Assembly (NCBI GenBank): GCA_014381945.1
Contig: JACNKQ010000044.1
Location: 1 to 64,000, forward strand
Length of the DNA stretch: 64,000 bases
Origin: Actinomycetota bacterium
Lineage (GTDB): Bacteria; Actinomycetota; Acidimicrobiia; Acidimicrobiales; MedAcidi-G1
Reading direction: 5' to 3'
Shown here: positions 13,021-39,236 of the stretch, in pieces
Layout of the letters: each line of letters begins with the position of its first letter
Numbering within the stretch: the stretch's first letter is position 1
The notes under the pieces: model-generated
The model's input: only the letters and a program-made list of their open reading frames with translations
Databases searched by the model: none
Told to the model about the DNA's origin: nothing
Translations under genes and position numbers: made by a program

Positions 13021-13932
13021 TCAGTCTGCCGTCGAAAGTCGCCCGCGCCAGTCCTCGAGGAGGTCTACCAGCGTGTCGTCCAACACATGGTCCTGTTTCC
13101 AGCCCGTGTCGGACGAGATCCGGGAAGGGTCGCCGCGAAGTTCCACGAGGTCGGCCGGGCGGAACAGTTCGGGGTCGATGGAGAGGTGCATCTCGTGTTC
13201 TGCCATCGAGAGCAGCCTGTCCATGATCTCCTGGACGCTCGTCGAGGTTCCGGTGCAGACGTTGTACGCCTCGCCGGACAGTCCATGCTCGCCCAGCAAC
13301 CGGTAGGCACGGACCACATCGCGTACATCGGTGAAATCACGTCGCGGCGAGAGGTTGCCCACGCTGACCTCGGTCCCGCCGGACCGCTCGTTGGCCACGA
13401 TCCGGGCGGCCAGCGCAGAGCAGACGAAGCGGTCGCTCTGACCCGGCCCCAGGTGGTTGAAAGAACGTGCCCGGACGACGTGCTGGCCGAATCCGAGGTG
13501 GGCCTGCAGGGCCACCATGTCTGCGGCCGCCTTGCTCGCCGCATACGGGGACACCGGCCGGACCGGGGCCGACTCGGTGAGCGGCAGGTCGTCGGGCGAC
13601 ACGAGCCCGTAGATGTCGGCGCTGGTCACGGTGACCACCCGTCCCACGTCCGCCGACCGGGCTGCGGCAAGGACGTTGTAGGTGCCCTCCACGTTTGCCC
13701 GGAGCGTCTCGACCGGCGCCGACCAGGAACGACCCACGTCCGCCTGGCCGGCGAGGTGGTACACGACATCCGGGCGCACCTCGGCGACCAGCGCAGCGAA
13801 CCCCTCGGCATCGAGCAGGTCCGGCCCACCGTCTGACCGGTCGGTGGGCACCACCTCGTCGCCACAGTCCTCGAGGTGTGCCATCAGGTGCTGTCCGACG
13901 AAGCCGGATGCACCGGTCACGAACGCCTTCAC
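13021..13932 (-). CDS. rmd: GDP-6-deoxy-4-keto-D-mannose reductase (GDP-D-rhamnose synthesis)
   Basis: Reduces the Gmd product to GDP-D-rhamnose. The 303-residue SDR protein has AFVTGASGFVGQHL, HLAGQADVGRSW, TSADIYG, the catalytic YAASKAA, RARSFNHLGPGQ and the Rmd-type FVCSALAARI. Overall it looks like Rmd rather than fucose synthase. The GTG at 13932 was chosen because the fold starts two residues later and because the TGA of a small upstream ORF overlaps it (GTGA). First gene of the four-gene minus-strand operon. Confidence 0.88.
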   Translation of the reverse strand: MKAFVTGASGFVGQHLMAHLEDCGDEVVPTDRSDGGPDLLDAEGFAALVAEVRPDVVYHLAGQADVGRSWSAPVETLRANVEGTYNVLAAARSADVGRVVTVTSADIYGLVSPDDLPLTESAPVRPVSPYAASKAAADMVALQAHLGFGQHVVRARSFNHLGPGQSDRFVCSALAARIVANERSGGTEVSVGNLSPRRDFTDVRDVVRAYRLLGEHGLSGEAYNVCTGTSTSVQEIMDRLLSMAEHEMHLSIDPELFRPADLVELRGDPSRISSDTGWKQDHVLDDTLVDLLEDWRGRLSTAD

Positions 13933-37654: not shown

Positions 37655-38545
37655 ATGAGCGAAACGAACCGTTCCACGGGAACACAGATGGTCAAGCGCG
37701 GGCTCGCCGAGATGCTCAAGGGCGGCGTCATCATGGACGTCGTCGACGCCCGGCAGGCCCGCATCGCCGAGGACGCCGGGGCAACGGCCGTTATGGCCCT
37801 CGAACGGGTCCCATCGGACATCCGACGCGACGGCGGCGTGGCCCGCATGTCCGACCCGGAGATGATCGAGGCGATCAAGGAGGCCGTGACCATCCCGGTC
37901 ATGGCCAAGGCCCGCATCGGCCACTTCGCCGAAGCCCAGATCCTCGAGGCCCTCGGCGTCGACTACGTCGACGAGAGCGAGGTGCTCACCCCGGCCGACG
38001 AGGCCCACCACATCGACAAGTGGGCGTTCACCGTTCCGTTCGTGTGCGGAGCCACCAACCTGGGCGAGGCACTCCGCCGCATCTCCGAAGGCGCCTGCCT
38101 CATCCGCTCGAAGGGTGAGGCCGGCACCGGCAACATCGTCGAGGCCGTCAGGCACCTGCGGTCGATCCTCGGCGACCTGCGCCGCATCACCCAGGCCGAT
38201 TCCGCCGAACTGTTCGACTGGGCCAAGCGCCTCCAGTCGCCGCTGCCCCTCGTCCAGGAGGTCGCCGAAACCGGACGCCTCCCGGTGCCCATGTTCTGCG
38301 CAGGCGGCATCGCCACCCCGGCCGACGCCTCGCTCGTCATGCAGCTGGGAGCCGAGGCGGTCTTCGTCGGCTCCGGCATCTTCAAAAGCGACGACCCTGC
38401 ACCCCGGGCCCGCGCCATCGTCGAGGCCACGACCAACTTCGCCGACCCGACCCTGCTGGCCAAGGTCAGCCGCGGCCTCGGCGACGCCATGCCCGGCCTC
38501 GAGATCGACACGCTCGAGACCCGCCTGGCCGACCGGGGCTGGTAG
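37655..38545 (+). CDS. pdxS: Pyridoxal 5'-phosphate synthase, synthase subunit
   Basis: Makes PLP from ribose-5-phosphate, glyceraldehyde-3-phosphate and ammonia supplied by PdxT. The 296-residue protein has [21 protein letters not shown]85 in [10 protein letters not shown]153 in [10 protein letters not shown] and [11 protein letters not shown], matching the two catalytic lysines of the family. The start is fixed by TACACT 7 bases upstream. A 14-bp tandem repeat array lies between its stop and pdxT. Confidence 0.98.
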
Positions 38546-38657
38546 GCGATCAGTTGAAGGCGATCAGTTGAAGGCGATCAGTTGAAGGCGATCAGTTGAA
38601 GGCGATCAGTTGAAGGCGATCAGTTGAAGGCGATCAGTTGAAGGCGATCAGTTGAAG
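38546..38657 (+). repeat. Eight perfect 14-bp tandem repeats ending in the pdxT start
   Basis: GCGATCAGTTGAAG is repeated eight times without a mismatch (112 bases), beginning at the base after the pdxS stop. Each unit holds TTG and, with its neighbour, a GAAGG 7 bases before the next TTG. From each internal TTG the frame runs five codons (MKAIS) and stops at TGA overlapping the next TTG (TTGA). The eighth TTG, at 38652, is the pdxT start codon. The unit is not a multiple of three. Confidence 0.97.
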
Positions 38658-39236
38658 GTAGGCGTGCTGGCGCTTCAGGGGGCGTTCGCCAGCCATGCCG
38701 AGATGCTCGGCGAGGCGGGGGCTACACCGATCGAGGTCCGCACGGCCGGTGAGCTCGCCGAGGCCGACGCCCTGGTGATGCCCGGAGGCGAGTCCACGAC
38801 GATGTCGATGCTGCTCGACATCGCCGAACTCCGCGCACCGCTGGCCGGTCGGCTGGCCGACGGGATGCCCGTCTTCGGAACCTGTGCCGGAATGATCCTG
38901 CTGGCCGTCAACGTGCTGGACGGCCGCTCCGACCAACGGTCCCTGGGCGCCATCGACCTCGACGTCCGACGCAACGGCTACGGCCGCCAGGTCGACTCCT
39001 TCGAAACCGACCTGGTGGTCGACGGGCTCGAGGGCACGTTCCCCGGAATCTTCATCCGCTCGCCCGTGGTCGAACGGATCGGCCCGGACGTCGAGGTGGT
39101 TGCAGAGGTCGAGGGGCGGCCGGTGCTGTGCCGGCAGGGCAACGTCCTCGTGGCGTCCTTCCACCCCGAGTTGGCGGGCGACGCCCGCATCCACCGACGG
39201 TTCCTCGAGTCGGCGTTCGCCTCCGACGCCGCCTGA
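38652..39236 (+). CDS. pdxT: Pyridoxal 5'-phosphate synthase, glutaminase subunit
   Basis: Hydrolyses glutamine and passes ammonia to PdxS. The 194-residue class I amidotransferase has KVGVLALQGAFASH, MPGGESTTMSMLL, the nucleophile C78 in GTCAGM, and the His-Glu pair in SFHPELAGD. The start is a TTG in the last of eight 14-bp repeats; the family start KxGVLALQG makes this position certain. The GAAGG of the seventh repeat acts as ribosome binding site. Confidence 0.97.
   Translation: MKVGVLALQGAFASHAEMLGEAGATPIEVRTAGELAEADALVMPGGESTTMSMLLDIAELRAPLAGRLADGMPVFGTCAGMILLAVNVLDGRSDQRSLGAIDLDVRRNGYGRQVDSFETDLVVDGLEGTFPGIFIRSPVVERIGPDVEVVAEVEGRPVLCRQGNVLVASFHPELAGDARIHRRFLESAFASDAA

Follow-up and report, generated by a model that had tools for sequence, protein, structure and literature searches.

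The gap between pdxS and pdxT is filled by eight perfect tandem units of GCGATCAGTTGAAG (the copy number being that of the draft assembly), each of them carrying a TTG. We narrowly favour the reading that this array is a tandem duplication of the pdxT initiation region, tolerated through self-terminating minigenes that would pass ribosomes on by termination-reinitiation. Within the window, that is, the whole 64,000-nt stretch analyzed, the array has by far the highest Tandem Repeats Finder score (230; period 14, 8.2 copies, 100% match). It begins directly behind the pdxS stop and reaches into pdxT, taking in the first two codons of this gene (Table 1). The last of the eight TTGs is the start of pdxT. 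The frames opened by TTG1 to TTG7 are minigenes of five codons each (MKAIS*) and every TGA overlaps the next TTG, giving seven consecutive TTGA overlaps. The motif GAAGG is located 7 nt upstream of TTG2 to TTG8; TTG1, at 8 nt from the pdxS stop, is without it and is served by the SD-like GGGGCTGG in the 3' end of pdxS. From the pdxS stop to the pdxT start the gap measures 106 nt. An earlier note on this DNA had described the eight perfect units reaching into the pdxT start, and repeat finding together with reading of the sequence confirmed them; all its reading-frame claims hold as well, and so does the spacing of GAAGG before seven starts, pdxT included. A chance origin of a perfect 112-bp array of a 14-mer is excluded. 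In the 2.49-Mb genome the unit has no exact copy elsewhere, only two sites with one mismatch, and for this reason the idea of a dispersed repeat was discarded.

Table 1. Features of the pdxS-pdxT junction, in positions of the window.
Feature	Position	Strand	Evidence and remarks
pdxS (PLP synthase subunit PdxS, SOR/SNZ family)	37655..38545	+	ORF; Pfam PF01680 SOR_SNZ 6e-104; stop TAG 38543-38545
SD-like GGGGCTGG in pdxS 3' end	38535..38542	+	11 nt upstream of first TTG
Eight-unit GCGATCAGTTGAAG array	38546..38657	+	Tandem Repeats Finder
Minigene 1 (TTG1)	38554..38571	+	TTG AAG GCG ATC AGT TGA; TGA overlaps TTG2
Minigenes 2-6 (TTG2-TTG6)	38568..38641	+	Starts 38568, 38582, 38596, 38610, 38624; GAAGG-7 nt-TTG; each ends on next TTGA
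Minigene 7 (TTG7)	38638..38655	+	TGA 38653-38655 overlaps pdxT TTG 38652
pdxT (glutaminase subunit, SNO family)	38652..39236	+	ORF; Pfam PF01174 SNO 1.9e-52; TTG start (TTG8) in unit 8

The duplicated element would be the translation-initiation region of pdxT itself, every further copy adding 14 nt. Since 14 is 3n+2 and the start is of the NTGA type, each copy makes a minigene of five codons whose stop falls exactly on the start that follows. Ribosomes leaving pdxS would enter at the first TTG and cross the seven minigenes by termination-reinitiation at the -4 overlaps, which would keep pdxS and pdxT coupled over the gap. It has been described that coupling falls steeply with the length of the gap and is nearly absent at about 20 nt, and that termination-reinitiation can work with no more than the last 15 nt of the upstream gene (PMC10666635). 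With coupling almost gone at ~20 nt, a gap of 106 nt should uncouple pdxT unless the minigenes carry the ribosomes across. In this genome the -4 overlap is the commonest same-strand junction. Expansions by 3n+2 would be tolerated at NTGA starts, and units of 1 mod 3 would lead ribosomes into pdxT out of frame. The 14-nt length may recur because it also puts the purine-rich codons 2-3 (AAGG/GAGG) at 7 nt from the following start, where they can act as its Shine-Dalgarno.

Some ribosomes should be lost at each step, and this counts against the relay. Besides, TTG is a weak start codon, and this weakness, the modest SD inside the array and the pairing of the TTGs in the predicted fold would point in the same direction. 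We found no demonstration of successive rounds of termination-reinitiation on five-codon frames in the open-access literature. That ribosomes could step along the array by stop and restart had been proposed before; the geometry on which this was based is real and finds support in its recurrence, observed at pdxT in other lineages and at other genes, and from it we infer the relay itself.

Pairing and folding were predicted for the array RNA. Using a general 16S tail rather than the one of this genome, pairing of GGGGCTGG was predicted at -8.2 kcal/mol and that of the GAAGG region inside the array at -5.0 kcal/mol. Opening the pdxT start was predicted to cost 7.9 kcal/mol for a single unit and 9.3 kcal/mol from five units upwards, i.e., accessibility did not gain with copy number and was flat beyond five copies. 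The array RNA was predicted to be more structured than its shuffles (z -2.5), with the TTGs paired. The seven candidate start sites of the earlier note are present in the sequence, but their standing as good sites is weakened by an SD inferior to GGGGCTGG and by an accessibility that does not improve. The array as an aid to independent initiation was rejected, being unsupported by either prediction. Translation of the array would open its RNA structure, something that fits coupling although it is no evidence for it.

Similar starts were found at pdxT in relatives (those with names are uncultured Acidimicrobiales). Three congeners (G001, G003 and G004) have 7 nt after the pdxS stop and then a single ATG start of pdxT, and in another one (G002) the gap is longer and has no repeat. 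The single-copy form of the array locus, TAG-GCGATCAG-TTG-AAG-GTA, matches the short gaps of the congeners. The congener G005 carries three 14-nt units at pdxT, CCCTGACGTGAAAG CCGGATCGTGAAAG CCAAGACGTGAAGG, with a diverged spacer and GTGAA kept, and G026, a member of another genus of the family, has GTGAAGGTGCCGGC twice and then GTGAAGGTC. Again in the distant family f56 a short frame ends on the NTGA of pdxT in 9/9 genomes, mostly of 14 nt (11 in G201, 29 in G174 and G269), and in 6/9 it also starts on the pdxS stop (GGTGA). In a PdxS+PdxT tree G005 falls outside the group formed by the array genome (G000), G004, G001 and G003, G026 is sister to repeat-less genomes and f56 is far away, indicating that several lineages either gained start repeats at pdxT or kept them. 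When tandem TGAAR starts at pdxT were searched for across the class, in a sample of 395 genomes that left aside G005, G026 and f56, the pattern matched the array genome only, and we did not find this array in any other genome or viral contig. An apparent insertion at pdxT of G004 was a scaffold gap of N. The earlier note had suggested that copy number may vary between strains; between relatives it does differ, with 0, 2 or 7 minigenes at pdxT within one genus and 1 versus 3 at the alcohol dehydrogenase-like gene described below, all of these being differences between species with one genome each.

We scanned ~1.27 Mb of the 2.49 Mb of the array genome for start-codon sequences repeated just upstream, using genes called by codon usage with a crude, home-made gene caller. 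At the junction between a CoA-transferase and a NUDIX gene (L258, 13310-13361; G000:C20 33310-33361) the stop of the upstream gene lies in the first ATGA and ATGAGGGCGATC[G/A]G is found three times before ATGACC, forming three 14-nt minigenes. The unit of this locus, ATGAGGGCGATCAG, shares GCGATCAG with that of pdxT and agrees with it at 12/14 positions in the same register, be it by descent, conversion or chance. A pyridine nucleotide-disulfide reductase gene (L049) is preceded by four copies of the 11-nt unit ATGACCCAGA[C/G], with the stop of the upstream gene once more in the first ATGA. One 14-nt copy was found at the start of a RACo-like gene (L254) and another at that of an amidohydrolase gene (L041). 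An in-frame array of 15 nt, GTGAAGGGCGCGAAC, is located at an anti-sigma-factor-like gene that follows a STAS-like gene (L038; G000:C5, about 13189-13257, minus strand); it would either extend the protein by VKGAN repeats or provide several starts. The names STAS, anti-sigma and amidohydrolase were assigned by inspection.

An interspecies comparison comes from an alcohol dehydrogenase-like gene (L085; G000:C53, reverse strand, start 15435), where the first ATGA contains the stop of the preceding gene and three diverged 14-nt minigenes, ATGAAGGCCCGACA ATGAACTCGCGACA ATGAACGCCCGACG, follow. Its ortholog in G003 (L105) has one 14-nt copy. Hence the two species differ in copy number at this gene, one against three, and its units have had time to diverge. 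The perfect identity of the pdxT array had been taken as a sign of fresh expansion or slippage; this does not extend to all chains, as those of the G005 pdxT and the G000 alcohol dehydrogenase-like gene are diverged. A structural scan gave a further 14-nt pair in L085, and a start repeat of 17 nt was found in G201. Some candidates were discarded: the predicted start behind a 16-bp array before rplM was a spurious upstream extension, and L071, with an 11-nt repeat, was left out of account, the true start probably being downstream. The former array (L039 11532-11674, G000:C6) has nearly nine copies and lies between truA-like and rplM-like genes. There is also a dense array of 9-/10-nt units, GTGAAGGGC/GTGAAGGGGC, upstream of a gene in L087 (about 1465-1640; G000:C24 21960-22140).

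Sequence identity alone gave nine authentic starts with repeats, all nine of them at NTGA, namely pdxT, L258, L254, L041, L049 and L038 in the array genome, L105 (G003), L124 (G026) and L130 (G201). To give a reference, NTGA makes up 28-29% of the called starts of the array genome and 26-36% across the genomes compared, and 0.29^9 is about 1e-5; the tests on NTGA are post hoc and based on small counts and crude gene calls. Unit lengths at these starts were 14, 11 and 17 nt (2 mod 3) or 15 (in frame), and never 1 mod 3. The ratio of upstream NTGA in frame 2 to frame 1 was 58:33 at NTGA starts and 67:89 at others (Fisher p 0.002), a shift in favour of the frame whose end lies on the start codon. 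Among non-coding arrays away from starts with a period not divisible by 3, about 19/25 are also 2 mod 3, which makes the frame preference alone weak evidence.

The strongest alternative is that the array results from neutral slippage in a repeat-prone genome, in which case pdxT would initiate independently at TTG8 by means of the GAAGG in front of it and the minigenes would remain unused. We consider it unlikely, although a good part of the data suits it. The density of tandem arrays is about 85 per Mb in this genome versus 33-38 in two congeners, and many arrays are unrelated to starts. The loss of NucS mismatch repair was rejected as the cause of this load, NucS being present. Perfect identity implies a recent expansion, the unit begins and ends with the 3-bp AGG, as would suit slippage between short repeats, and a duplication brings with it a usable SD-start pair. 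In the family, pairs of TGAAGG 14 nt apart showed no genome-wide enrichment, which speaks against the favoured reading. Slippage of this kind would hardly account for repeats appearing at authentic starts only when these are NTGA and never with units of 1 mod 3, nor for the 14 nt and NTGA being retained in the diverged chains of the G005 pdxT and the G000 alcohol dehydrogenase-like gene, nor for the occurrence of pdxT start repeats in several lineages.

Alternatively, the array could act as a copy-number rheostat, in which slippage within the population would be selected for the PdxT:PdxS ratio through the ribosomes lost at each hop. Such perfect repeats should be unstable, and the congeners do differ in copy number at pdxT and at the alcohol dehydrogenase-like gene. 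However, PdxS and PdxT function together in a 12:12 complex, so that a strong change in their ratio would be without obvious benefit, and the predicted accessibility of the start is flat beyond five copies. We regard this explanation as improbable.

Two more explanations have very little probability in our view. Iterated protein binding sites or an RNA-structure element, as proposed for TAACTGA repeats, would agree with a short repeated unit right before a start and with an array RNA that folds better than shuffles, but the other loci differ in unit sequence and have only the start geometry in common (the NUDIX unit does share GCGATCAG), and no Rfam family or promoter-like site was found in the array. 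Equally slight is the chance of an assembly artefact, with fewer copies in the true genome: the assembly is a draft of 78 contigs, some of which end in arrays, but this array is inside a 96-kb contig and is shorter than common read lengths, and assembly cannot explain the similar, diverged chains seen at other genes and in other genomes. Near-perfect 14-bp arrays (GTGACAGGGCCCCG and GCCCTAGGAAACAA) are located at contig ends (L036 1-54 and L040 1-67), suggesting that the assembly breaks at arrays and that more of them may be missing.

Returning to the duplicated initiation region with its minigenes, the nearest precedent is the mycobacterial MIRU. MIRUs are inserted at overlapping start and stop codons and contain an internal ORF coupled at -4 nt, with little harm to expression (PMC12548453). 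The array likewise has a repeat on the start codon and a small ORF with the geometry of coupling to the next gene at -4 nt. In contrast, MIRUs form a dispersed family thought to be mobile, while the start arrays are locus-specific tandem units of 11-17 nt derived from their own start and the unit of pdxT has in the rest of the genome just its two imperfect matches. MIRUs are also longer than the units of the array. Termination-reinitiation at -4 overlaps such as ATGA (PMC6728339, PMC10666635) involves the same NTGA overlap between consecutive frames, and the array has the geometry of such junctions (NTGA at -4 nt or a gap of few nt); in the known pairs a single step links two genes, whereas the array places as many as seven five-codon frames in a row between its two genes. 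In leader genes and bicistronic designs (PMC4833913, PMC10367133) a short leader frame that stops near the main start delivers ribosomes to it. The array does have leaders that carry an SD of their own and whose stop overlaps the start of the main frame, but it is tandem, copy-variable, natural and inside an operon, while the known leaders are single-step. The TAACTGA heptamers of Beggiatoaceae and cyanobacteria (PMC4679880) are similarly short direct repeats just before starts, with a suggested role in translation; they are one fixed heptamer at many genes, unlike the start arrays, which vary per locus and have the start codon inside the repeat. Our search of the open-access literature gave no account of minigene chains that are tandem and locally copied.

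More tentatively, these loci could represent a class of start-site arrays of the Acidimicrobiia, in which duplication at NTGA starts would build multi-step relays on minigenes of 4-6 codons whose length can change without breaking the coupling. If ribosomes do step along the pdxT array, a single natural mRNA would have seven successive termination-reinitiation events, and it would provide a direct test of the behaviour of post-termination ribosomes (scanning or reinitiating only at overlaps) with a built-in copy-number series. The relay, if true, would also explain how tandem expansions survive at gene starts, since only units of 3n or 3n+2 are frame-safe at NTGA.

Many other pdxS-pdxT gaps of Acidimicrobiia (L170, L172, L195, L197 and others) have a recurrent box of the GAGGCCCCCAGGTG type directly before pdxT, made of an SD-like GAGG, a conserved, near-fixed spacer and GTG. 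Five Acidimicrobiia-like pdxT loci (L180, L193, L203, L214 and L231) come from public records titled Bifidobacterium breve, and these titles look wrong.
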